Of a stretch of DNA of 60,000 nt, positions 1,700-59,530 are shown piece by piece; positions within the stretch are counted from its first letter, which is position 1, and each line of letters starts with the position of its first letter. The position numbers and the translations under genes were made by a program. The notes below the pieces were generated by a model, which did no database searches, had not been told where the DNA came from, and saw only the letters and a list, made by a program, of their open reading frames with translations. The DNA is from Bolinopsis microptera (taxonomy: Eukaryota > Ctenophora > Tentaculata > Lobata > Bolinopsidae): assembly GCF_026151205.1 (NCBI RefSeq), contig NC_087081.1:13290340-13350339 (forward strand). The letters run 5' to 3'.

Positions 1700-3240
1700 A
1701 ATGATTTTGACCGATCTAGATGATGCTAAATGTTTTTGCATGTTCATGATATTGTCTTATTCTTATATTTGAGAGTTCCTCCAAGACTTTGTTTCTTTCA
1801 AATTAGAAGAGATCTGTGAACTACTTAAAGGAATTTCCTAAGTCCGACAGTCATTGCAACACACATCACCACAACCATAGCTCCCGTGGTATAGCAGTAA
1901 GAGTGAAGGTCAAACAGGGACGGTGCAAACATCGAGAAGATGTAGAAAATGTAAAACACGTTATTTACAACTGCGTAACCCAAAGAAGTTCCCTCCCCGA
2001 AGATGATGCCAGAGACGGTGTAGAAGGTGATGCTTATCCCACTGTCAGCTAATCCAATCAAAGCACAGATCACGACAACAAAGATGGAGTCAGGTGTTAT
2101 GTAGGTCTCACCTGATATGTCTATACCAGACGCAGCACCCTTTGGGAAGATCAGTATGGATATAGCCAGCGATGCCAGCAGCATGAGCGACTGCAGGACG
2201 ATGCAGAAGGTGCTGTTCAACCATTTTGAGAGAAAATTCCAAGATGCTGATCCTATAAGATATGAGGCTCCAATGGTAACTGTAGTCAGAGGAATGAGGC
2301 CTCTTTCGTCGGAGATGGAGGCTGTTGCTGTTGGTAAGATTTTGTAAAAGTAACCCCAAATGAACGCCCAGTATACTAAAGGAAGCAAAAGCACCCAGAA
2401 TTCTAATCGTTGAACCATGATGTTGAACCAATTTTTAGTATACTCAAAAGAATGGTTAAATTTAGAAATATCAAATTCAAAAACAGATTTAGCAGATTCT
2501 TTGTCATCAAGGGAACCTTCTTTTACCGTAAGTGGATCTGTTGTTCCGCCATTTTCTGCAGATATATCTCCATTCGTCTCTTTTATATCACCCTCATTTT
2601 CTAGTGGCTGATGTCGGTATTTATCATTTTTAATCTCAGACAGACCAACAGCAGCAAGGACACCAGCGAAGCACGTGACCCCACCACACATCCCATAAAC
2701 TACAAATCTGTTGGTTTCAGAGATAACAGTGATATTATCAAAGTAGATATAGCCACATAATCCTCCTATCATATCGCCCAGTGACTTTGCAATCCAAAAG
2801 TAGGCCATGTTTCGTATTCCTTCGCCCTCTTGTGAGTTATCCATCACGACCATGGGGCAAATAATCCACAATCCTCCCCAGCCCAGACCAGCCAGGAACC
2901 CTCCCAGATAAATGAGATATTGATTCACAACCCAGATCATACTCCAATAGTAGGCAGTAGTGATGATTATGGTAAGGGTTATTGTGATCTTTATTCCAAG
3001 GAACCTGTAAACTACAGGGAATATAAAACCCATGATTATTGACCCAATCACCCCCACAATCTCCGAGTAATATCCGACCTGTAGGGCTAAATCTGTACTC
3101 TCCGCCAAGGTAATGTTCTGGACTGCAGCTGCAGGGGTCCCAGCCATGACGCAGATCATCATTGTTAAGCTGGCTATCAGGAGATTCTGCGTTCTCGCGT
3201 CACAACAGGATATCATATTCATTGTTATCGAGTTAACGTG
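1700..3240. repeat. Left arm of inverted duplication carrying UNC-93 copy A
   Basis: The segment is the reverse complement of about 17590-19115. Homology starts about 20 bases upstream of the start codons (GTTAACTCGATAACAATGAA) and continues through the whole ORF and about 110 bases of 3' flank, including TTCCTCCAAGACTTTG. The arms are separated by about 14.3 kb. Confidence 0.9.
1825..3222 (-). CDS. UNC-93-like membrane transporter, copy A
   Basis: The 465-residue ORF is intronless and close in length to animal UNC93A. UNC-93 proteins are multi-pass major-facilitator-type proteins; some regulate K+ channels or receptor trafficking. About 11-12 hydrophobic segments are visible. A short N-terminus ending SCCDARTQN precedes TM1, TM2 holds YYSEIVGVIGSIIMGF, a glycine-rich helix reads GGFLAGLGWGGLWI, and the late family motif reads GLADSGISITFYTVSGIIFG. 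A charged cytosolic loop (about residues 197-258) separates the two halves. The Met chosen gives MNMISCCDAR; 20 bases upstream are shared with copy B. Copy A is nested in an intron of gene 1 on the opposite strand. The transported substrate is unknown. Confidence 0.85.
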   Translation of the reverse strand: MNMISCCDARTQNLLIASLTMMICVMAGTPAAAVQNITLAESTDLALQVGYYSEIVGVIGSIIMGFIFPVVYRFLGIKITITLTIIITTAYYWSMIWVVNQYLIYLGGFLAGLGWGGLWIICPMVVMDNSQEGEGIRNMAYFWIAKSLGDMIGGLCGYIYFDNITVISETNRFVVYGMCGGVTCFAGVLAAVGLSEIKNDKYRHQPLENEGDIKETNGDISAENGGTTDPLTVKEGSLDDKESAKSVFEFDISKFNHSFEYTKNWFNIMVQRLEFWVLLLPLVYWAFIWGYFYKILPTATASISDERGLIPLTTVTIGASYLIGSASWNFLSKWLNSTFCIVLQSLMLLASLAISILIFPKGAASGIDISGETYITPDSIFVVVICALIGLADSGISITFYTVSGIIFGEGTSLGYAVVNNVFYIFYIFSMFAPSLFDLHSYCYTTGAMVVVMCVAMTVGLRKFL

Positions 3241-17589: not shown

Positions 17590-19115
17590 CACTGTTAACT
17601 CGATAACAATGAAGAGGATATCCTGTTGTGACGCGAGAACGCAGAATTTCCTGATAGCCAGCTTAACAATGATGATCTGCGTCATGGCTGGGACCCCTGC
17701 AGCTGCAGTCCAGAACATTACCTTGGCGGAGAGTACAGATTTAGCCCTACAGGTCGGATATTACTCGGAGATTGTGGGGGTGATTGGGTCAATAATCATG
17801 GGTTTTATATTCCCTGTAGTTTACAGGTTCCTTGGAATAAAGATCACAATAACCCTTACCATAATCATCACTACTGCCTACTATTGGAGTATGATCTGGG
17901 TTGTGAATCAATATCTCATTTATCTGGGAGGGTTCCTGGCTGGTCTGGGCTGGGGAGGATTGTGGATTATTTGCCCCATGGTCGTGACGGATAACTCACA
18001 AGAGGGCAAGGGAATACGAAACATGGCCTACTTTTGGATTGCAAAGTCACTGGGCGATATGATAGGAGGATTATGTGGCTATATCTACTTTGATAATATC
18101 ACTGTTATCTCTGAAACCAACAGGTTCGTTGTAAACGGGGTGTGCGTTGGGGCCACGTGCTTTGCAGCTGTACTGGCTGCGGTTGGTCTGTCTGAGATTA
18201 AAGATGATATATACCGAGTTGAGGGTGATGTGATAATGACGAATAGGGCATCTGCAGAAAATGGCGGAACAACAGATTTACCAACGGTAAAAGAAGTTTC
18301 CCTTGATGACAAAGAATCTGCTAAATCTGTTTCTGAATTCGATATTTCTAAATTTAACCATTCTTTTGAGTATACTAAAAATTGGTTCAACATCATGGTT
18401 CAACGATTAGAATTCTGGGTGCTTTTGCTTCCTTTAGTATACTGGGCGTTCATTTGGGGTTACTTTTACAAAATCTTACCAACAGCAGCAGCCTCCATCT
18501 CCGACGAAAGAGGCCTCATTCCTCTGACTACAGTTACCATTGGAGCCTCATATCTTATAGGATCAGCATCTTGGAATTTTCTCTCAAAATGGTTGAACAG
18601 CACCTTCTGCATCGTCCTGCAGTCGCTCATGCTGCTGGCATCGCTGGCTATATCCATACTGATCTTCCCAAAGGGTGCTGCGTCTGGTATAGACATATCA
18701 GGTGAGACCTACATAACACCTGACTCCATCTTTGTTGTCGTGATCTGTGCTCTGATTGGATTAGCTGACAGTGGGATAAGCATCACCTTCTACACCGTCT
18801 CTGGCATCATCTTCGGGGAGGGAACTTCTTTGGGTTACGCAGTTGTAAATAACGTGTTTTACATTTTCTACATCTTCTCGATGTTTGCACCGTCCCTGTT
18901 TGACCTTCACTCTTACTGCTATACCACGGGAGCTATGGTTGTGGTGATGTGTGTTGCAATGACTGTCGGACTTAGGAAATTCCTTTAAGTAGTTCACAGA
19001 TCCCTTCTAATTTGAAAGAAACAAAGTCTTGGAGGAACTCTCAAATAAGAAGAAGACAATATTATGAACATGCAAAAACATTTAGCATCATCTAGATCAG
19101 TCAAACTCATTCCTG
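17590..19115. repeat. Right arm of inverted duplication carrying UNC-93 copy B
   Basis: Reverse complement of about 1700-3240. Homology ends sharply 20 bases upstream of the start codon and about 110 bases after the stop. The 3' flank has small indels relative to the left arm. Confidence 0.9.
17609..18988 (+). CDS. UNC-93-like membrane transporter, copy B
   Basis: The intronless ORF of 459 residues is nearly identical to copy A at 1825-3222. The first ~170 residues differ at only a few sites (for example KR for NM after the start Met). From residue ~300 to the end the two proteins look identical apart from one Ala/Thr. Differences cluster in residues ~172-255, the cytosolic loop between the two halves, where B is shorter by six residues and several stretches are unrelated. 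The family motif GLADSGISITFY is intact. Both copies appear functional. Confidence 0.85.
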   Translation: MKRISCCDARTQNFLIASLTMMICVMAGTPAAAVQNITLAESTDLALQVGYYSEIVGVIGSIIMGFIFPVVYRFLGIKITITLTIIITTAYYWSMIWVVNQYLIYLGGFLAGLGWGGLWIICPMVVTDNSQEGKGIRNMAYFWIAKSLGDMIGGLCGYIYFDNITVISETNRFVVNGVCVGATCFAAVLAAVGLSEIKDDIYRVEGDVIMTNRASAENGGTTDLPTVKEVSLDDKESAKSVSEFDISKFNHSFEYTKNWFNIMVQRLEFWVLLLPLVYWAFIWGYFYKILPTAAASISDERGLIPLTTVTIGASYLIGSASWNFLSKWLNSTFCIVLQSLMLLASLAISILIFPKGAASGIDISGETYITPDSIFVVVICALIGLADSGISITFYTVSGIIFGEGTSLGYAVVNNVFYIFYIFSMFAPSLFDLHSYCYTTGAMVVVMCVAMTVGLRKFL

Positions 19116-19436: not shown

Positions 19437-20998
19437 TCAGCATTGATCTTCACCAACTGATGGTGGTCCGTTAACTAAAACTAAATTGCCATCCTCGTTA
19501 ACATCTGCATCATGGTAACTGAAAACATTGTGGACATTTAACCTCCCTGAGGTTAGCTTCACGAACCTCCCCGGGGCTCCGTGCCTCTTTTTATCGTAGC
19601 CCTTAACCTGCCTTTAATCTTAGGTTTGTCGTGATTAAGATATATTCCCGTACAAGTAACTAGTTTGAAACCTGCTGCTTTCATTCTAATAAAAACGTCT
19701 TTGTGCTCAAAAACCTTGAGCTCAGGATCCCATCCCCCGATTTGTAGGATCGGTTCAGTCCTTGCCATCCAAATGTTTGAATTAAGTTCACATCTAAAGC
19801 ACTGTGGAAGTTCGGAACGATATGGTTTAGTTTCTTACAAGTTCCAGGAAAATACCCCAATTTTCTGAGGGATCCACCGAAATATCCAAATTTCAGTGAA
19901 GCTGCATAATTTGTCCTTCCAGCGAGCTGACCACCAACAAGTGTGGCATCGGTCGTGTCCAAAATTTCGATCATGGTTTGCATGTCTGTTGTGTTCATAA
20001 ACAACACGTCGTCATCTAAAAGAAAGAAATATTTTGTTTCAACCATTTTGAGGGCTTGGTTTCTTCCCTCTGCTATTCCCAGATCCTCAACGTCACTGAC
20101 AACGTACGTCAGTAACGGATACTGAGCTAACCGATCTCTGATATCTTGAGAGTAATTATCTGGCCCGTCGTCGTAGCAAGCTATCGGCAAGTCATAACCA
20201 TAACTATCTCTGACTGACTGAGCTAAGCGAGCAACTTAATGGGGCCTACGGTCAGTCTTTACTACCAGAGTTACACATTCCCAAGGTTTTGTACACCTTT
20301 GTATTTGATCCGCAGGCAGTGTTTCTATCGGAGATATTCGTCTGTTGAACTCACAAGCTTTGAAGTCACAGCACTCATCGCTGCGTGGTATTATCGCTGA
20401 ATTTTTCAGTAATTTTCTGTCCTCTTGGAAATACGACTCCTCTGATAGAATAACTCGAGATCTATCCTTGTCAAAGTTGGTAATACCAGGACCGTTGATA
20501 CAGACAAATTTCTGGTGTCTCAGTTTGACCAATTTTGGATCAACTCTAAATAAAGGGGTGATGAAGTGTGGTACTGATTCTGAGTGCGAGTTCCATAATG
20601 ACCTGAGCCGTATATAGGAACCATTGACTAAATCAAAGTAACCAATGCCATCGCTAAGGTCACATTCTTGCAGATGGAGAGGTTGATTCGTGATAGATCC
20701 CTCTTCAGATTTAGAATAACCAACACACCCACCAGTTCTCTCATAGATCAACTTGTGGTCACTATCCAGGCTAAAAGTTTGCTCCACATCAGGGTCACAA
20801 AAGTAAACTTCCAATCGTCTACCATCTGGGGAATCAATACAACGACCTTCATTCCATAGCCGTATCTGGTGTTGATAAAAATGATAGTCGGTGGTTCGGA
20901 ACCGGATCTCTGTATTTGTTTGGTAGTTATGTAGGGTGATGATTACGATAATGACCCATACGAGAAGTAGAGTAACAATTTTTGTATTTCCAGTACAT
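19437..20998 (-). pseudogene. B4GALNT-like glycosyltransferase pseudogene (GT12/GT2 fold)
   Basis: Reading on the minus strand, a type II anchor (KIVTLLLVWVIIVIITL) is followed by a stem with a ricin-like patch (YERTGGCVGYSK). The transferase domain begins ECVTLVVKTDRRPH, has the metal-binding triad in FFLLDDDVLF, then LVGGQLAG and IWMARTEPILQIGGWDPEL, and ends near DVNEDGNLVLVNGPP. This order matches beta-1,4-N-acetylgalactosaminyltransferases of the Golgi. It is broken by an in-frame TAA at 20236-20238, a frameshift near 19795 and another near 19590. No good start Met is in frame at the N-terminus. It could be a recent pseudogene or suffer from assembly errors. Confidence 0.8.
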
Positions 20999-21278
20999 CT
21001 GAATCGTCTTCTTAACTGCCTTCATCTAAAAATATCGAGTAAAAACATGAAAGAAGTAAAAACGAAGACTGAAATTGACATATCTTAATTTTTAAAACGG
21101 TATTAGTCGTTATAGTGCAGTGGTCGTTTTAAATTGTGTTGCAATAGCCAATAAATTAGCTTTCTTGTCAACTTTTGTAAGTGTAACTTGTTCGGTTATT
21201 GTACAGGGTGTTTTAAAAGTCTTGCAATGATGTTCTTTTTGGATAACTTTTACTACTACTACTACTACTATGTCGGAG

Positions 21279-21698
21279 CTAAGTCCGATCTACGCCAGAA
21301 AACCCCCTCCATATATCCCTGTCCCGCATCAGGGTTTGCAGTTCCTCTTTAGAGTTCGTCCCAACTTCCTTCAGTAACATAGACATGTAGCTTTGTCTTG
21401 GTGGGCCTTGCTGTGCTCTACCGTGCGTAGGTTCCCATAAGACTAAATCACTGGCAAGTAGCTCAGGATGTCGGATGCAGTGTCCCGCCATTTTTAATCT
21501 TCTGCTTCGTAACTTGTTTGAAAGCCTTGGTAGGCTACCATACAAAGTTATATTGCTGACCTTGTCCTTCCATGAGATACCCAGCACCATACGCAACATC
21601 TTTGTGTATGTCCCGTCCAAACGTTTCTCTTGAGCCTTTGTCAGTGTCCAGGTTTGTGATCCGTAGAGCAGTACTGATTCACAAGCCGCTATGAACAA
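21279..21698 (-). pseudogene. LINE Pol C-terminal domain
   Basis: The frame opens LLYGSQTWTLTKAQEKRL, a block found after the RT domain in RTE-like Pol proteins, and continues with RRLKMAGHCIRHPE and WEPTHGRAQQGPPRQSYMSM. It follows the RT frame with only a stop between them. It ends at the true Pol stop, just before the 3' tail. Confidence 0.85.
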
Positions 21699-21704
21699 TC
21701 TAAT

Positions 21705-22646
21705 CTAGAGGCTCTTTGAGAGTTTGGATTTCCAGATATCCTTCAGTCTATGTAGGGCATCCCACGCTTTTCCCTTTCTAACCCTTATCTCCCTATCTGT
21801 GCTCTCAATCCAGTAGCCTAAGTAGATGAAATCATCTACATTTTCTATGGCTTCCCCGGATCGACTTTGTATGTCGCTTATAGATCGATCCTCCATATTC
21901 AGTGTCATGACCTTGGTCTTGCCTTCGTTTATGTGTAGTCCCACGCTTGCTGCCGCCGATTCTACTCTGAGCAGGAACTCGTTAGCCTTGTCCATGTCCT
22001 CAGATATAAGTGCTATATCATCTGCAAAGTCCACATCGGTGATGATCTTGGGCTCCACTCTTCTGCTTTTTCTACGTTCGAGAGTGAGTCCAAGCCGCTC
22101 CGCATCATCGCCTATGGCTTGCCTCATACAGTAGTCGATGACTATTGCAAAGAGGTAAGGTGCTAAGGTATCACCCTGTAACACACCTGCAAGTATCTCG
22201 AACAATTCAGTTTCTCCGTCTGGAGTTAGGACTTTGGCCATTGTCTTCTCGTACATGAGCCGTATAAGCTGCACGATTTTGACTGGAATGCCGTAAGCTT
22301 CTAGAATCTTTAGCATTTTCCCACGATGTACACTGTCGAAAGCCTTCTTAAAGTCTATAAATGTCAGAACAGCTGGCAGTTTCCAACTCTTGACACCCTC
22401 TATAAGACGTCTCAGTACCAATATCTGCTGAGTTGTTGACCTTCCTGGTCTGAATCTATTCTGGTTTCTGCGCAGACTTGTCTCGATTTCTGGCTTCAAC
22501 CGGTTTAGAACCATCTTGTTTAGAGACTTGGCAACTAGGGATGACAAGCTTATTCCCCAATAGTTCATTGGTTCGCTAAGGTCGCCCTTCTTTGGAATTG
22601 GTATGATGTTGGCAGTTGACCATTGGTCTGGTTTCTCACCTTTCAA
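21705..22646 (-). pseudogene. Reverse transcriptase domain of the RTE-like LINE
   Basis: The 313-residue frame has the RT blocks in order: IIPIPKKGD, WGISLSSLVAKSLNKMVLNR, NRFRPGRSTTQQ, LTFIDFKKAFDSVHR (first Asp), GVLQGDTLAPYLF and the catalytic DFADDIALIS, with FADD as the active-site box. The finger, palm and thumb are complete. The following stop and the frameshift before it suggest the element is dead, although the active-site residues are intact. Confidence 0.92.
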
Positions 22647-22680
22647 TAGAGCATTGTTACAGAAGTCTAAGACAATTTGA

Positions 22681-23345
22681 TCATGGTCGCATCGTTTTAA
22701 GACTTCTGAGTTCTGGGGCTATGTTGTCGTCACCCCATGCTTTCCTTTCCTTTATGCTGGACTTTGTTTTCCTGTAATCATCCAACGTAAAAGGTTCTGT
22801 TCCGATATTCAGAGGTGGGTGGACTGGATTAATATCCTCTTCCGCGTTCTCTACCGTCGGTGGTGAGCCGAGAAGAGTAGCAAAATAGTCCTTCCATTTC
22901 TGAACCCTTTCCGTTGGTGAGTTTTCCTTGATTTTGCCAGTATAATATGATGGAGCTTTACCCGTGATCTTGTTGATCATGGTCCAGCTTTTAGCATGTC
23001 TGCCCTGCCAACTTGCTTCCTCCAGTTCCCGGACCTGCCCCTCCAGCAGTTGCTCTTTTGACTGCTTGATAATCATCGCCTGGCTTCTGTTTGCCTTCTT
23101 GAACAGCTATTCGGTTGTCTTCTGTAGCATCTGAGTGTTATTTTATGCTACATTCCCTCAGCTTCAGCCTGGCAATCTCAACACTTGGAGTCGCTGAGAT
23201 TTTACATCTTTTCTTTTTCTCCTTTTCAGGTAGTAAAAGTCGAGAAGTTGTCCTATTCGCATCAATAAAGCATTGGTACCTTTCTGTTGCCGTCTGACCA
23301 TCCTTTTCAAGTATGGAAAAGCGGTTTTTAACTTCCACTGTGTAC
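22681..23345 (-). pseudogene. LINE Pol linker between endonuclease and reverse transcriptase
   Basis: Two overlapping frames read RYTVEVKNRFSILEKD... KISATPSVEIARLKLRE and EASWQGRHAKSWTMINKITG. These are typical of the region between endonuclease and RT in RTE-like Pol. The first residues fit directly onto the endonuclease C-terminus (IALQE|RYTVEV), which marks the insertion point of the ORF1-only retroelement. Confidence 0.8.
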
Positions 23346-23696
23346 CTCTCTGATTTGATTTGATTTGAAACTTTTACAAAATAGCAAATATACAAATGTA
23401 CAGCAAATCGAACAAACATATAAAATGGGCCGAAATGTATAAATGCTATAAAGCGTGGGTCAGTGAAACAAGTACAGAGGACAACTTTCAAAACAGGAGT
23501 TTTATGGCCGCCCAAAGTCTCAATAACATCACCTCCACCTAGTAATAAAATTATGAAATATGAAAAGTGTGAAACAATCAAATAATAAAATATTCAAATT
23601 ATATAGTTGTCTCTTAAATACAGATAACGTCCGAAAATTCTTAAAATAATCATCACTCCTTCATATACTGATCAGTGTCCGAGAGACATGAATAAC

Positions 23697-24609
23697 TCAT
23701 GATGACTTCTTATCACGGCTACATACCTTCCCGTACCGGATGTAGTGGTCGAGATGAGTCTGTTCAGCCCTCTTCTTCTTCAGGTCAGTGACCAGATGCT
23801 TCCTTGTTGCTCGTTCTTCGCTGGATCTGTCTGGACATATCCATACATCTTTGTGCGTCTCCCTCAGTCTCCCTGTTTTCATCAGAATCTGATGAACCGC
23901 TGTTGAGCTTGGGACGGTGATCTTGACTGGTCGGATAGCCGTACTACCTGGCCTCTTCCAACCGACTCTAGTCGCTTCGAAGTGAGGTTTCTCCCCGATC
24001 TCCTCCAAAACTGCGGTAACTAGCGCTGGAAGCTGTTCTTCCTCCTCTTCTTTCAGCCCAAACACGATCAGGTTCTTGCTCCTATCCTCCTCTGCAGCGA
24101 CACTCTTCATCACCTTCTTCAGGATTTTAATGTTGCAGACCGTACCACATGCACTGTTCTGTTGAACAGCTGCACTATAGTTCTGAATCCCTGACTCCAC
24201 CGTTGTTTGCACTGTCTCCTCAACAGACGTATTAAGCAACTGTAGTTGTTCGTCCTTCTGCATCAGCAGCTGGCCCTGCAGTCTGATCACCTTTTCTTTG
24301 TCTGCTAGTGCTTCCGTCTTGAAGCACTCGATGATCTCCTTCAAGAGATACTTCAAGAGATCTCCTTCAAGAGATACTTTGCCGACGAACAAGGTCCACT
24401 GCATTCACAATCCAGCCAGACAGAGTCTGTTTATCCTTAGTCTTGATCTTTTCACGACTTTCGTAATCAATATCTCTGTAGTCCATATGCAGGTCTTTTC
24501 CTAACTGAATAGACCAGCGTGCAACACAGCCTTCCACATCTTCCTGTTGATCATAGTTGAACTCCTTAATCAACTCTTGGGATCGGGTCAAAGTTGGGTC
24601 ATCCGCCAT
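23697..24609 (-). pseudogene. ORF1 of the ORF1-only retroelement, frameshifted copy
   Basis: Two overlapping frames (24609-24367 and 24404-23697) correspond end to end to the intact protein at 24771-25691. The N-terminus reads MADDPTLTRSQELIKEFNYD, and the C-terminal part has RSKNLIVFGLKEEEEEQ and PDRSSEERATRKHLV. A small tandem duplication of CTCCTTCAAGAGATAC at about 24337-24380 shifts the frame. Confidence 0.8.
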
Positions 24610-26439: not shown

Positions 26440-27245
26440 TTACACACACTGATGCTCTTGTAGAGCGATATCAGTTTTAAGTTTAGACCAGTCCAGAACC
26501 GGAGCCCTCTTCTCCGTCTTGCTTATCCGTAGACTAAGCTTTACCCTTGCTACGACTACTCTGTGATCCGAGCCAATACTGTGGAAACTACCATATGCTT
26601 CGGATTTCTTGACGGAGTTCCGCCATTTCTTCCGGCAAATGATGAAGTCGATTTGAGATTTACTTTGACGCATATCTGAGAGATATGTCCAGAGTTTACC
26701 TCTTCGCTTCTGAAATCTGGTGTTTGTGATTTCTAGCTGTCGCTCCAACAGCATATCCTCTAGCAGTCTACCATTTCGGTTTGCTGGACCCTTGTGGAAG
26801 GATGTCCAGTTTCCTGATGATGAGACATGCGCATTGAGGTCTCCTACAACGAATAGTAAGTTGTGTGCTGGTATCTGATCTATGGCACCACCAAGACTGT
26901 CATAGTAGCTTCATCGACAGTCTGCATCGGGCTATAAGTCACAATAACAGTTGTGACTGGGTTCCCTGCAAAGTTGGCTACCATCGTCCTCCTGTCATGT
27001 GAGTATACACTAATCAATGAGTTGAATACTGTCGTTTTGTCCAAGACAATACCAACCCCACCAGCAGCCGCCCCATTGCTGGTTCTCCATGCCGAAATTG
27101 TTATGAGGTGAGAGCTGCCAAGATCGACACCTTCTACCATACCACCCATCTCGATAAAGTAGAAGACAAACCGGGTTATCTCCCTAGGTATGTGACCGAC
27201 GGTATCTAATATAGTCTTGTAGGTACCTTCGTACCTTATCTGCAC
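26440..27245 (-). pseudogene. Apurinic-type endonuclease domain of the RTE-like LINE
   Basis: Frames 27245-26880 and about 26870-26440 give an N-terminal part with FVFYFIEMGGMVEGVDL and TVIVTYSPMQ, the catalytic GDLNAHVSSSGNW block, SQIDFIICRKKWRN, and the final SDHRVVVARV box. These are the D/N and SDH motifs of APE endonucleases. A frameshift lies near 26880, and the very N-terminus is missing. Confidence 0.85.
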
Positions 27246-27249
27246 AGCG

Positions 27250-27442
27250 CAGATAAGCTTACTGTATGAAAAATGGATTTAAAAATTATTTGCTAAAATT
27301 ATAAAAACTTCAAAAAAAGATGAAAAAATTCGGATTTTTTATGGTTTTGATTGCCTTTTAGCGTTCATATTAAAGTATTAATGTCCGTTCATAATTATGT
27401 CCGTTCAAGTAATGTCCGTCCAAATAAGGTCCGATAAGGTGG
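27250..27442. mobile_element. Truncated end of the pogo/Tc1-like element family
   Basis: The segment ends GTAATGTCCGTCCAAATAAG, GTCCGATAAGG, matching the end of the element at 13449-14358. Inside it keeps ATTATGTCCGTTC repeats and the TCAAAACCATCAAAAATCCG block in reverse orientation. The other end is absent; the DNA next to it is the truncated LINE. Confidence 0.75.
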
Positions 27443-52166: not shown

Positions 52167-53300
<1,134 letters not shown>

Positions 53301-54062: not shown

Positions 54063-57000
54063 ATGACTGACAAGATTTTGATGTTTCTTGTTTTTCTTTC
54101 CTCTGTAAACCTATCGAGAACCGAGAATAAAGGTAAGAGCTTCTTAAACTTCATTTCATAAAATATAATCTTATACTTGGAGATTTTGGGTTTTGGGCAT
54201 ATTGAGGTGATCTGGCATAATTGAGCCAAGAAGGGCTTTCTCGGAAACAAGTTTCTCAAAAAATTCAGGCTGGTCCCCCCTGTAGCAGAAGGGTTTTTGA
54301 TTAACATTTTAAAATACCATATCTTCGTCGCCCGAAACTACGTTGCAAATATAGAGTTACAAATTAAATTCTTAAAGCAAGGATTTCTAAAAATTCTGTA
54401 CAAATCTCAGTGACCGCCTAACTGTTGTAAGAAACCAAACACCTTCCAATTGGTAAACAATATTGGTAAGATGTGAAATTACATTTCCCTTAAATAGTAT
54501 GAATCCTTCAGATTGGGCACAGGTGGTATTCGAACAACAAATACCCTTCCAACAAGGAATAACAAAGCTTCTGGTAAAGACTGATTCGATACTGGGAAGC
54601 AATGAGGAAATAAGGTTGCAATTTGTAGAAGAGAACAACAGTCCCAGTGGGGGAATTAGGATAATGTTCTATCCAGCCGGGCTAAAGTATATCATTGGAG
54701 GTTGCACCACAGCGTGGGAAAGATTCGCAAGCGAGCCGCCAACTGAGACGGCCAAAATTTGGGAGTTTGTTCTAAATCCTCGAAGGATTAATGTCAAGTG
54801 TAACGAGAAGGAGGTTCTTGATTTTGTGTTGTCGAATATTGACTGTCCGAACTTGAATTGGGTGAGCGGAGAAACAGAACTGAAAGCTGTAATGTTTCAT
54901 GATATCGACAAAGCCTCTGACTTCTTCGTCGTTAAGCAAGGTTTGCTGGAATTCGATTGTTTCTGAGTTAAATTCCACTATTTGATGGTTGATATTTTGA
55001 TTTTAAACTCTGTTATGTAATTAAGAGTTGTCATTGCCAGTAACTTCTTCTTAACCAAATTGTTTTTGAATGGTAGTGTTAACAGAGCGTTTAGACTGTT
55101 GTTTTTTCGATAATCCTCTTCGTTGGATGCATTAACATGATAAAGTAAATTTTGATAAAATAAATTTTGTTTAACAATTAACATAGAGACTGTCTCAGAT
55201 TGGAGTTGGACTGAAGTTAAACGGGACATGAATTTTCCTTTTGACCAAGAAACAACATCACTCCAGATCCAGACAAACTCTTTGTCTGGAAGTGGGAGTG
55301 TGATAAGAATCAAATTCTTTAACAAAAACGAAGTTGGTGAAGAGAAGCTTGTCGGCTCAATACGGATTAGTCTATCTGATGAGCCGACATATACTGTTAT
55401 GAGATGTCTAAAAAGAGAAACAGAGATGAAGCCCTTTACAGAGGAGCTTCCTGCAGAGAAATACAAAATCTGGAACATCACTAGAATAGCTGACAAACTG
55501 ATTGTGGAGTGCAATGGAGTGATGGTTTTAGATTTCAAGTTCTCAGATGAAAAATGTGAACTGTATGGTCCTAAATGGAAAGAATTGTGGAATCAGAAAA
55601 TAACATACGCAGCTTTCATAACAGATACGTTCTCTTATGGACAGTATGGTGATACTGGTTCAGAGTATTATAAAACCACGCCAATATCAGGTTGGATTAA
55701 GATAAGATATTTTAATGAAAGTTATGTAGACAATTATTTAGTACTAATTCATTGTCATGTTAATATAGTAAAGCAATTTTTTAAACTTATGGCGCAAAAT
55801 ATAACCAATGTAATATAGAATTAGTTCACCAGCTCATGGCACAAACATTTGCAGGTTGGAAAGCGGTTGAACGTGCAGTGGACCTAGACCTCAACTGGAA
55901 ACAAACCTACCTTGAGATCAGAACCTCAGCTTCATTGGGTAGCGACAAGAAACTATATGTCCACTTTCATGACGAAAATATGGCGTTAGCAGGAGCAGTG
56001 GTGATAACGTTCAGTTCCCCGATAAGGTATCACATAGGATGGTGCAAAAGTAACACATTTTCAAGTGCCATACCACCAGGACCTGAGCAAACCTGGACCC
56101 TGATCAGAACTCTAGCAGGCGTGAAGATGCTGTGCAATGATACCGAGGTCCTGGACTTTGAGGTATCTGGTGGTACTTGTGGTGTGACTACAACTTGGGA
56201 AGATTATTGGAGTAAGAATGTCAAGAAAATGGTTTTTACGCAAAGTGATACAGCATCGACCTATTATAGGATAAAGCTGAAGCCAGGTATGTTTTATTTT
56301 TCAAATTTTGGAAAATTTCTCGAGAAGGTGAATATTTTGGGTGAATATTTCAGGCTTAATTTAAGGATGAACAATTATTTTTCTTTAAAAACAGTGCTAT
56401 ATTAATCTTCCTGTTCAGTTGATGGAGGATACAAAATGTATCGGAAAAATTTGAAATAAACTGAAAACATTTTATGGCATACTATAATAGTTGTATAATG
56501 TATAAGTTGTATAAGTTGTATAAGTTGTATAAGTTGTATAAGTTGTATAAGTTGTATAAGTTGCTTCATAAGTTGTTATTTATAAATAAATTTAATGTCT
56601 TCAGTTAGTCTTGAGTTGGTCTCCGCTAGTCAAAGTAGTGAACATAACAGTGGCAGTGCCGCAGACAAGGCCATCGATGGTAATACTAATGGCAACATGA
56701 ACAATGGGGACGGGTAAGTTAATATCCAAGTCTTTGCTTCTTGTTGGGCAAAGGAAAACAAATCAGTAAACAGACCACAGCCCGGGATTTAAGATAGTAA
56801 TCTGAATACATTCAGCATTTAGGCAATGAAAATACAAAAATATATATCCTAAGATCATGTACGCACACGGCTGAAAACACTGGAAACACTGATAACGAAT
56901 TGTGGTGGATGGCTGAATTTAGAGAGGCTACAGTGACCAAGGTCGTTCTACACAACAGGATCGACTGCTGCTCAGAAAGGATCGATGACAATATGGTTAG

Positions 57001-59530
57001 ACTACTGAAACTTTTTTATCTTCTTAGAATAAACATTCCAAAATAATGAGATAATACGAATGGTTCAACGTTATTTAGATCTTAAACAATTTTACAGTCC
57101 ATGATATTGTTTCTGCGTCATTAGTGAACGTCGCATTATATAGTGAGGAAACAATAAAATGCCAATGTGCGAAAAGTATTTGATTTATTCCAACGACATT
57201 CTAATCATTGTCAAATGTGTCCATTAAACTTACCTGATGCCGAATTTCATCTCTGCAGGTTTACATTGGGAACGGGTACTGTAATAAAGTCGTGTACGTA
57301 GTAGGGCAGAGTATTTACGAGCTCATCTGTGAAGGAGCTTTGACAGGAACGAGTGTCAAAGTAATGAAGAATAGCGGTGTGCTGACTCTTTGTGAGGTTG
57401 AGGTTTTTGGAGTCCCAACGCCTCCAGGTGATGCACATTTTATGATAAACTTTAATATTTTTAACAAAGAAGTTTTCAGAGTATCATTATATGGACTATC
57501 ACGTGACTTAGTTGAACACGTTTTCTATATGGATCTGACAAACAAGCCAACCTCTTACTAGTAACTCTGACCCCACCCTAACCCTAACCCAATCCCAAAC
57601 TCAAGCATGAAAACAAAGTCAGGGTTAGGGGGATTCGAAGCCAGCGTCCAAAAATGCAATGATTTAAGCTAATTTCAAATAGCAAAGATCCTTTTAAAAA
57701 GTGCCAGTGTAGAGCGATTTAAATTTAGCATGTTCTTCGTGATAATGTACTATATTAAATAATAAGCTACCTAACTATCAGTTAACTAGCCTCCTGATAA
57801 AATGTGTTCCTCGTAAAAACTCGCACACACTAGATTGCTATAATAATCTTCCTGTTTAGTTGATGGAGGATACAGTGCCTTTGGAGAGTGGTCTGGGTGC
57901 TCTGCTGAATGTGACGGAGGAACACAAACCAGAACCAGACAATGTAACAACCCTGCTCCCGCTAATGGTGGTAACGAATGTGCAGGAGTAAACTCAGAAA
58001 CTCAAAATTGTAACACAGAATCTTGCCCAGGTGGTTATATAATATTATGTCATTAAAGGGTATCTACACGTTTTTAGGATAGACACTGGTTTATTTTAAT
58101 ATTTTTTTATTCAATACTTGGCTTGTTTAATTTTAAGGAGGAACAATCTTTTCTTTTTTTTAACAGTGCTATAATAATCTTCCTGTTTAGTTGATGGAGG
58201 ATACAGTGCCTTTGGGGAGTGGTCTGGGTGCTCTGCTGAATGTGACGGGGGAACACAAACCAGAACCAGACAATGTAACAACCCTGCTCCCGCTAATGGT
58301 GGTAACGAATGTGAAGGAGTAAACTCAGTAACTCAAAATTGTAACACAGAATCTTGCCCAGGTGGTTATATAATATTATGTCATTAAAGGGTATCTACAT
58401 GTTTTTAGGATAGACACTGGTTTATTTTATTATTTTTTAATTCAATACTTGGCTTGTTTAATTTTAAGGATGAATAATCTTTTCTTTTTTTAACAGTGCC
58501 ATAATAATCTTCCTGTTTAGTTAATGGAGGATACAGTGCCTTTGGGGAGTGGTCTGGGTGCTCTGCTGAATGTGATGGAGGAACACAAACCAGAACCAGA
58601 CAATGTAACAACCCTGCTCCCGCTAACGGTGGTAACGAATGTGAAGGAGTAAACTCAGTAACTCAAAATTGTAACACAGAATCTTGCCCAGGTGGTTATA
58701 TAATATTATGTCATTAAAGGGTATCTACATGTTTTTAGGATAGACACTGGTTTATTTTATTATTTTTTAATTCAATACTTGGCTTGTTTAATTTTAAGGA
58801 TGAATAATCTTTTCTTTTTTTAAGAGTGCTATAATAATCTTCCTGTTCAGTTGATGGAGGATACAGTGCCTTTGGGGACTGGTCTGGGTGCTCTGCTGAA
58901 TGTGATGGAGGAACACAAACCAGAACCAGACAATGTAACAACCCTGCTCCCGCTAATGGTGGTAACGAATGTGAAGGAGCAAACTCAGTAACTCAAAATT
59001 GTAACCCAGAATCTTGCTCTAGCTCAGGTGGTTACATATGTCATTAAAGGGTATCTACATGTTTTTAGGATATATACTGGAATATTATACTGGTTTATTT
59101 TAGTAAACATTTTAATTCAATACTTTGGTATCGACGTAGTGGATGGTTGAGCTGGTTTCAAGCTCGCGTTTTACTCGATCCCCCCTATAAGTATAACCAC
59201 ATAAGCCAAATTTGGTCAAATTAGGACCGGACAAACAACAGCAGGACAAATTGGGGCCGAAAACAACCACTGGTTAAACTTAAATACAACAAAACCACGA
59301 TCCATAACCGATCACAATTTTACTAAAAACCATTTCAGCGCCACAACAATGCTCCACTCCGGATATACCTCACCTCAGCTACCCTCCCCCAGACGCAGCC
59401 ACTTATCCTCAAGGAACTGAGCTGACCCTGCAGTGTGCGGCGGCCGGTCACGTGATCATGGGAACGCGCACGATCACGTGCCAGAACGACGGACAGTGGT
59501 CTAGTCAGCTTGCTACCTGCTCTACCACAG
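54063..59530 (+). CDS. Gene 3: secreted modular protein (new domain x3, F-type lectin, TSP1 x4, CCP)
   Basis: Exons: 54063-54132, 54512-54940, 55199-55690 (or from 55187), 55855-56286, 56605-56713, 56854-56995, 57259-57427, 57860-58030, 58191-58361, 58521-58691, 58851-59027, 59339-59530, continuing right. The first exon is a signal peptide ([18 protein letters not shown]). Every module is bounded by phase-1 introns; only the two introns inside the lectin domain are phase 2 and 0. This is the classic layout of exon-shuffled extracellular proteins. No transmembrane segment is seen so far. A carbohydrate-binding role in adhesion or immunity is inferred from the lectin, TSP1 and CCP domains. A possible next exon starts at about 59924 but stops after 22 codons unless spliced. 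Confidence 0.82.
54512..54940 (+). CDS. Gene 3 unrecognised domain, repeat 1
   Basis: 143 residues in one exon (phase 1-1). Key residues are [13 protein letters not shown] at the start, then [55 protein letters not shown] and [12 protein letters not shown] at the end. Repeats 2 and 3 align throughout. The two invariant Cys (after YxIG and before the final third), the CN pair and the VLDF strand suggest a small beta-sandwich. It recalls a galectin-like jelly roll in its V-x-CN pattern, but I cannot assign it to a known family. Confidence 0.78.
55199..55690 (+). CDS. Gene 3 unrecognised domain, repeat 2
   Basis: About 164 residues. It shares [62 protein letters not shown] and an extended C-terminal part ending EYYKTTPIS. 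It is the longest of the three, with an insertion containing YGQYGDTGS near the end. The donor (TCAG|GTTGGA) is weak but fits in phase. The acceptor could also be at 55186, adding ETVS. Confidence 0.72.
55855..56286 (+). CDS. Gene 3 unrecognised domain, repeat 3
   Basis: 144 residues: [87 protein letters not shown] and ASTYYRIKL. The conserved core is W, I/L-x-F, Y-x-I, C, W, V/M-x-CN, VLDF, S-x-x-x-C, W, F, D-x-x-S-x-YY. The frame is open upstream of the acceptor, but the conserved region begins at the splice site. Confidence 0.78.
56490..56562. repeat. 9-bp minisatellite (TTGTATAAG)
   Basis: About eight tandem copies of TTGTATAAG lie in the gene 3 intron before the lectin exons. A related ATAATG variant begins the array. 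Confidence 0.9.
56605..57427 (+). CDS. Gene 3 F-type lectin (fucolectin/F5-8C-like) domain, three exons
   Basis: The exons at 56605-56713, 56854-56995 and 57259-57427 together encode about 140 residues: [20 protein letters not shown], then [41 protein letters not shown], and [29 protein letters not shown], the R-x-D-C-C-x-x-R sugar-binding patch with vicinal cysteines and the terminal LCEVEVFG are hallmarks of F-type lectins. The His expected 27 positions before the first Arg of that patch appears to be Asn here, so fucose binding may be altered. Confidence 0.88.
57860..58030 (+). CDS. Gene 3 TSP1 repeat 1
   Basis: 57 residues, phase 1-1. It has six Cys and the pattern [19 protein letters not shown], the WSxCSxxC...G...R.R.C signature of thrombospondin type 1 repeats, which mediate matrix and glycan binding. 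The Trp and the alternating Arg that stack in the fold are present. It differs from the next repeat at only three residues (DGG spacing kept, Ala for Glu before GVNS, Glu for Val). Confidence 0.92.
58191..58361 (+). CDS. Gene 3 TSP1 repeat 2
   Basis: 57 residues with the same six-Cys TSP1 pattern. Exon and intron are part of a 330-bp tandem duplication. The flanking intron, including GGTGGTTATATAATATTATG and TATCTACATGTTTTTAGGAT, is nearly the same in all copies. Confidence 0.92.
58521..58691 (+). CDS. Gene 3 TSP1 repeat 3
   Basis: 57 residues. It begins [14 protein letters not shown] where the other copies have VDGG, and is otherwise the same as repeat 2. Confidence 0.92.
58851..59027 (+). 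CDS. Gene 3 TSP1 repeat 4
   Basis: 59 residues. It has FGDWSGC in place of FGEWSGC and a C-terminus of NPESCSSS instead of NTESCP, caused by a two-codon insertion. The copy at the edge of the array is the most diverged, as expected when unequal crossing-over homogenises the inner copies. Confidence 0.92.
59339..59530 (+). CDS. Gene 3 CCP/sushi module
   Basis: 64 residues, phase 1-1: [46 protein letters not shown] and LATC. Four Cys, the G-x-x-x-x-x-C, the ITC and the G-x-W are the sushi/complement control protein pattern. The gene continues past this exon. Confidence 0.9.

Follow-up and report, generated by a model that had tools for sequence, protein, structure and literature searches.

A multicopy domain family in the ctenophore Bolinopsis microptera with variation focused on a putative binding face

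The hypervariable residues of lamprey variable lymphocyte receptors lie on an exposed face of beta-strands. Sponges and sea urchins have large, lineage-specific expansions of a recognition domain in their SRCR scavenger-receptor families, as set out in the available part of PMC10855680, and the sea urchin SpTransformer (Sp185/333) proteins belong to a diversified multigene family of one lineage whose interaction with pathogens is reported in the available part of PMC8634487. A family that invites comparison with these was found in the ctenophore Bolinopsis microptera, starting from a 60,000-nt stretch of its genome (contig NC_087081.1, positions 13,290,340 to 13,350,339, forward strand; hereafter “the window”, by whose positions features in it are located). 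One gene of the window encodes three tandem copies, R1 to R3, of a domain of about 140 residues. Related copies are scattered through the genome near a variety of partner modules, and two clades of them show positive selection concentrated on part of the domain. Because of the many copies, the modular stalks, the constrained partner domains and the apparently driven face, the domain is proposed, with confidence a little above even, to mark a large family of extracellular recognition proteins that diversifies fast, with immunity or the distinction of self from non-self as its most likely use.

The likeness to the SRCR families lies in the large expansion of one domain. Unlike in those families, the variable domain here is not SRCR and has no Pfam match, although an SRCR exon (PF00530, E value 1.3e-9; locus L095) stands just downstream of one of the more distant copies (L076). 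With SpTransformer, the family shares its multigene, diversified nature and perhaps its restriction to one lineage, a likeness of description; it differs in where variability is concentrated, namely at every second residue within part of a single domain. No leucine-rich-repeat match was found here, and the likeness to the lamprey receptors is one of analogy only. As for F-type lectins and F5/8 type C domains, the domain that follows the repeats in the window gene belongs to this class (PF22633), but R1 to R3 themselves do not match it. A survey of ctenophore immune genes (PMC11797021), in its available part, used 20 Pfam domains, described novel architectures, and counted 55 SRCR, 42 C-type lectin, 38 NACHT and 15 TIR2 genes in Mnemiopsis. 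Since the survey was built on Pfam domains, it would, judging by that part, not have met a domain that lacks a Pfam model. The places that encode the domain in B. microptera outnumber each of these four Mnemiopsis classes, in a comparison of places with genes that can only be rough.

The kinship of the three window copies is clear. Their pairwise local alignment scores were 132 to 137, against maxima of 46 to 49 in 500 shuffles each (BLASTP E values 1.6e-15 to 3.3e-14), with 26–30% identity and 28 columns invariant in all three. Together with the AG/GT splice borders found at all three repeat exons and the maintained reading frame, these scores bear out the proposal of an earlier note on this DNA that the gene contains three exon-sized repeats of one domain, and the limits that it gave, 54512 to 56286, coincide exactly with the outermost splice sites of the repeat exons. 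The core motif it proposed stood in part: VLDF, CN and S-x-x-x-C occur in all three copies, and the other elements had been slightly idealized (in R2, Y-T-V-x-x-C replaces Y-x-I-x-x-C; in R3, the K of K-x-W is missing and V-x-CN reads M-L-CN; and the motif closes with F-F, not Y-Y, in R1). An alignment of 92 nonredundant copies contains three invariant or nearly invariant cysteines per domain, C64, C94 and C109 of R3; as this is an odd number, one of them may be free or may pair between domains.

Evidence for a large family came from searches of the genome of B. microptera, the only genome searched for the domain (264,652,675 bases in 232 contigs; the 13 large contigs, C1–C13, measure 15.2–26.2 Mb and together hold ~258 Mb). 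Four protein queries identified at least 227 distinct domain-coding places (150 with the first query, then 23, 31 and 23 new ones), a lower bound that leaves R1 itself outside the count. These places form 165 clusters, 120 of them singletons, and occur on each of the 13 large contigs as well as on two small ones; with a shuffled query, the count was 0. R2 also has relatives elsewhere in the genome, as found with a protein query, and R3 scored highest of the three window copies against the family profile. An expansion on this scale is large, as for a diversified immune-type recognition family. Stop codons interrupted 3 of the 150 places found with the first query and left 147 without an internal stop; more stops were present among the places found with the other three queries.

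The organization of other copies was read at 18 loci of 10 kb (L011–L028), picked from those that matched R3 best. Phase 1-1 flanks were present at all 22 copies whose splice flanks were read, so that, counting the three window copies, each domain would usually correspond to one phase 1-1 exon, an arrangement that would make the domain duplicable and shufflable without a break in the frame. The one-exon rule has an exception, since two copies lie within a single 463-residue open frame at a further locus (L054). Adjacent same-strand phase 1-1 domain exons at L012, L016 and L017 could in principle be spliced alternatively or in a mutually exclusive way.

Most of these loci also carry exons for other modules. 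A four-cysteine exon was found at 14 of the 18 loci (15 exons); these exons fall short of the Pfam model, and the name “CCP-like” is therefore given by eye. A GCC2/GCC3-like exon was found at seven of the 18 loci with one query and at seven of the 18 with a second; among Pfam families, the match of these exons to Ephrin_rec_like narrowly passed the cut-off, whereas that to NCD3G fell short of it. LDLa exons (PF00057, E value 1.7e-9; L096) lie downstream of the L054 copies, and no module was recognized by eye downstream of two further copies (L097, L098). The signal-peptide exon of one group of copies, clade A, was located 31 times, in a few cases as a fragment, and at 27 of these places a domain exon follows on the same strand within 20 kb, an association with a chance probability of 0.9% per place. 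Even on different chromosomes, introns and flanking DNA remain similar over kilobases (mostly ~71–97% within a clade among the matches listed), which indicates that the genes were duplicated at the DNA level, introns included.

Such long similar flanks, together with the few interrupted places, could also be taken as signs of spread by mobile elements, or of a collection of mostly decaying pseudogene exons whose variation reflects relaxed constraint. This explanation is considered highly improbable: almost all places found with the first query are free of internal stops, and domain and signal-peptide exon mostly occur together. A transposon was judged an unlikely vehicle, in an assessment that included no systematic search for element ends or transposases.

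Positive selection was investigated in two clades of neighbouring, recent copies, set by sequence motifs within the 92 copies: clade A (39 copies) and clade B (18 copies). The copies are paralogues from one animal and were taken from search lists, not at random, and the ratio of nonsynonymous to synonymous change (pN/pS) was obtained by simple change counting, not from codon models. Over all pairs, pN/pS was 1.21 in clade A and 1.19 in clade B (136 of 153 pairs used). In sliding windows, the ratio ran from 1.1 to 4.2 in alignment columns 31–75 and from 0.27 to 0.84 in columns 76–105. For clade A, 19 non-overlapping nearest pairs gave a pN/pS of 2.00 in columns 31–75 (bootstrap interval 1.64–2.50, P 2e-8) and of 0.56 in the core columns 77–105. 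The companion exons at the same loci gave lower ratios, 0.49 for CCP-like exons (0.34–0.77, 7 pairs; 0.43 over all pairs) and 0.57 for GCC exons (0.24–0.65, 7 pairs; 0.47 over all pairs). Relaxation alone does not raise pN/pS above 1, and the companion exons and the core of the domain are constrained, both of which argue further against pseudogene decay. In nine clade A copies, the hypervariable stretch differed by 0.226, against 0.096 and 0.154 for the flanking introns.

Several observations weigh against a recognition repertoire built on this domain. The window copies R1 to R3 are among the 35 of the 92 copies that fall outside clades A and B, the two clades that the selection tests cover. 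When clade B was analysed alone, columns 31–75 gave a pN/pS of 1.26 (0.76–2.26; 9 independent pairs), which is not significant, and this clade has a second peak of ~2.9–3.1 in columns 101–120 that is absent in clade A. In seven clade B copies, the hypervariable stretch differed by 0.246, against 0.077 for one intron and 0.334 for the downstream one, and thus changed more slowly than one of its introns. A further companion motif, GCCb, gave 0.72 with an interval that reaches above 1 (0.40–1.36, 9 independent pairs; 0.58 over all pairs). Alignment error in gapped columns could inflate pN. Finally, columns 31–75 were picked after the sliding-window result was known.

Because of this post hoc choice, a cross-clade test was used, in which sites picked in one clade were tested in the other. 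The 30% most variable sites of clade A had a pN/pS of 1.75 in clade B (1.05–3.02, P 1.8e-4), and the 30% most variable sites of clade B had a pN/pS of 1.60 in clade A (1.40–1.90, P 6e-6); the remaining sites gave 0.61 in B and 0.91 in A. With the top 20% of sites, the ratios were 1.77 in B and 1.70 in A. Column entropy was correlated between the two clades (rho 0.67).

Additional evidence came from the pattern of variation along the domain. Within columns 31–75, entropy alternates from one residue to the next, with an autocorrelation of −0.33 at lag 1 in both clades and of +0.31 (A) and +0.42 (B) at lag 2. The variable columns alternate from about column 31 to 65. Out of 10000 permutations, 29 in clade A and 6 in clade B reached the observed period-2 value, and the same permutation test detected no significant alternation in columns 1–30 or from column 76 to the end. 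Such a period of two, in which conserved residues separate the variable ones, would be expected of the outward face of beta-strands, and we infer that the middle of the domain probably forms such strands, with the outward residues as the putative ligand-contact face. On this assignment, positive selection in clades A and B is focused on the putative binding face.

Whether the domain belongs to a named family was addressed by comparison with profile, sequence and structure databases. R1 to R3 had no Pfam-A match above the gathering cut-off, NCBIfam gave no match, a profile of the 92 copies matched 0 PDB chains at E values up to 10, and single sequences had best PDB E values of 0.056 and 0.48, which are not matches. 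Scanned singly against Pfam, with cut-offs given for the first member only, the 92 copies produced only scattered weak hits among the matches listed (25 of 37 families): the lowest E value in that list was 4.8e-4, for the Pom152 Ig-like family in two members, and the commonest family was CUB, in 4 of 92, with no family in more than four members. One of two consensus sequences matched CUB at 0.027, over 39 of 110 profile positions, and the other matched nothing. Searches with one clade A copy found no relatives among the viral contigs of IMG/VR or among phages, and conservation along the 92-copy alignment was too low throughout to seed a search for related loci. The earlier remark that the repeats could not be matched to a known family thus holds up against Pfam and against the sequences in PDB; the strong Pfam match that had been named as counter-evidence did not appear, since no Pfam family exceeded its cut-off and no PDB sequence matched. 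Literature searches aimed at the domain family, ctenophore allorecognition and diversified invertebrate families yielded no published description of the family among the matches listed, as judged from titles and abstract openings, with bioRxiv, most subscription papers and supplements outside their coverage.

These searches bear on an alternative in which the domain does belong to a known lectin or sandwich family (galectin, LamG, the farnesoic acid O-methyltransferase domain, CUB or F5/8) but has diverged so far that profiles miss it; its function may still be recognition. This alternative deserves serious attention, at somewhat less than even probability. The strand-like alternation and the length of ~140 residues suit a beta-sandwich, and a known jelly-roll or sandwich fold may, as far as sequence comparison goes, be compatible with absent similarity. 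The weak hits point the same way and are inconsistent with one another: CUB as above, and Laminin_G_3 in 1 of 92 members. The CUB match covers only a part of its profile, however, and profiles of candidate families did not lead to the 227 places. The galectin profile (PF00337) found 30 places in the genome and the laminin G profile (PF02210) found nine, none of them, by eye, among the 227. The profile of the farnesoic acid O-methyltransferase domain (PF12248) found 0 places, and since control genomes also gave 0, this counts as non-matching only.

Under the interpretation favoured here, each protein would carry, behind its signal peptide, the domain in one to a few copies and then stalk or adaptor modules of the GCC2/GCC3-like, CCP-like, TSP1, SRCR, LDLa and F5/8 kinds, although gene models outside the window are predictions. 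Duplication of genes with their introns, together with selection for change on the outward face, would generate a repertoire of binding specificities, the likeliest use of which would be to recognize microbes or to distinguish self from non-self. The recognition role that the earlier note had suggested is made likelier by the finding that, in related copies, positions that look exposed are under diversifying selection; what the note missed is the spread of the domain beyond one protein, to many genome places with several architectures.

The main rival to an immune or self/non-self use is prey capture, because sushi and lectin terms appear among colloblast candidates in the available part of PMC6278862. 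Adhesive or toxic secretions, for example of colloblasts, would carry a binding face that evolves against prey surfaces in a predator–prey arms race. Secreted multigene families under positive selection are compatible with prey capture too, but such diversity seems more than a generalist predator would require. Stalk modules of these kinds are equally common in receptors, and prey capture is regarded as unlikely. A second rival use is gamete or other reproductive recognition, with diversification under sexual conflict. Reproductive proteins often have pN/pS above 1, a resemblance with nothing specific to this family, and at least 227 places with six kinds of partner module exceed, to our knowledge, the usual gamete recognition systems; this use is given little credence.

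In its most specific form, the proposal is of a hypervariable receptor system of the ctenophores' own, based on a domain not described before. Secreted or surface proteins, in their hundreds, would carry a driven beta-sheet face and together form a germline repertoire with which to recognize pathogens or tell self from non-self, invisible to Pfam-based surveys. This form is put forward tentatively, as rather less than an even prospect. The domain itself is a concrete candidate for the means by which ctenophores recognize microbes or each other and yields a list of residues to test.

The window gene, whose model was built from its DNA sequence only, has the following exons, all on the plus strand:

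54063..54132, +, first exon with start codon and signal peptide (donor GT, phase 1; in-frame splice model, signal judged by eye)
54512..54940, +, domain copy R1 (single exon, 429 nt, phase 1-1)
55187..55690, +, domain copy R2 (single exon, 504 nt, phase 1-1; extra residues at two or three places)
55855..56286, +, domain copy R3 (single exon, 432 nt, phase 1-1)
56605..56713, +, F5/8-type (F-lectin-like) domain, exon 1 (PF22633, E value 5.2e-8 for the joined exons; frame)
56854..56995, +, F5/8-type domain, exon 2 (PF22633, joined exons; frame-keeping acceptor picked)
57259..57427, +, F5/8-type domain, exon 3 (PF22633, joined exons; frame)
57860..58030, +, TSP1 repeat, exon 1 (borders read from sequence; frame; unit repeat)
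58191..58361, +, TSP1 repeat, exon 2 (PF00090, E value 1.2e-10; frame; unit repeat)
58521..58691, +, TSP1 repeat, exon 3 (borders read from sequence; frame; unit repeat)
58851..59027, +, TSP1 repeat, exon 4 (borders read from sequence; frame; unit repeat)
59339..59530, +, CCP (sushi) exon (PF00084, E value 4.8e-9)

In this splice model, the signal-peptide exon, R1 to R3 and the three F5/8 exons join into an in-frame open frame of 618 residues. The match of the F5/8-type domain to PF22633 (NedA-like galactose-binding) is above the cut-off and that to PF00754 below it; the domain also contains an R-x-D-C-C stretch reminiscent of what we take to be the motif of F-type lectins. Pfam cut-offs are exceeded by the CCP exon and by one of the four TSP1 exons. 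The frame and these matches confirm that the repeats precede an F-lectin-like domain, TSP1 and CCP modules, as had been proposed, and inspection downstream of the CCP exon gave no clear further exon and no end of the gene. The TSP1 exons lie in four tandem units of ~330 nt, each an exon with its intron (57819–59109), which are 86–98% identical to the reference unit, introns included, indicating recent duplication. More than 500 nt of CT repeats (52171–52704) lie upstream of the gene.

Elsewhere in the window, frames on the minus strand resemble, by eye, a reverse transcriptase and endonuclease of the long interspersed nuclear element type (21282–24404 and 26443–27278) and a glycosyltransferase that includes a ricin-type lectin stretch (19684–21021). 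A nearly identical open frame of 120 residues occurs twice, ~15 kb apart, at 2840–3199 on the minus strand and 17632–17991 on the plus strand; since the two lie on opposite strands and differ at 2 of 360 nt and one residue, they represent an inverted duplicate. Elsewhere in the genome, the full sequence of a glutamate receptor matched vertebrate kainate receptors best by E value, with short entries of ML032222a, a Mnemiopsis protein, lower in the ranking; its second ligand-binding segment, taken by itself, had ML032222a as best match. Ionotropic glutamate receptor genes of this genome (L029, L030, L032–L034) occupy single stop-to-stop open frames of 923–970 residues and seem to have few introns or none.
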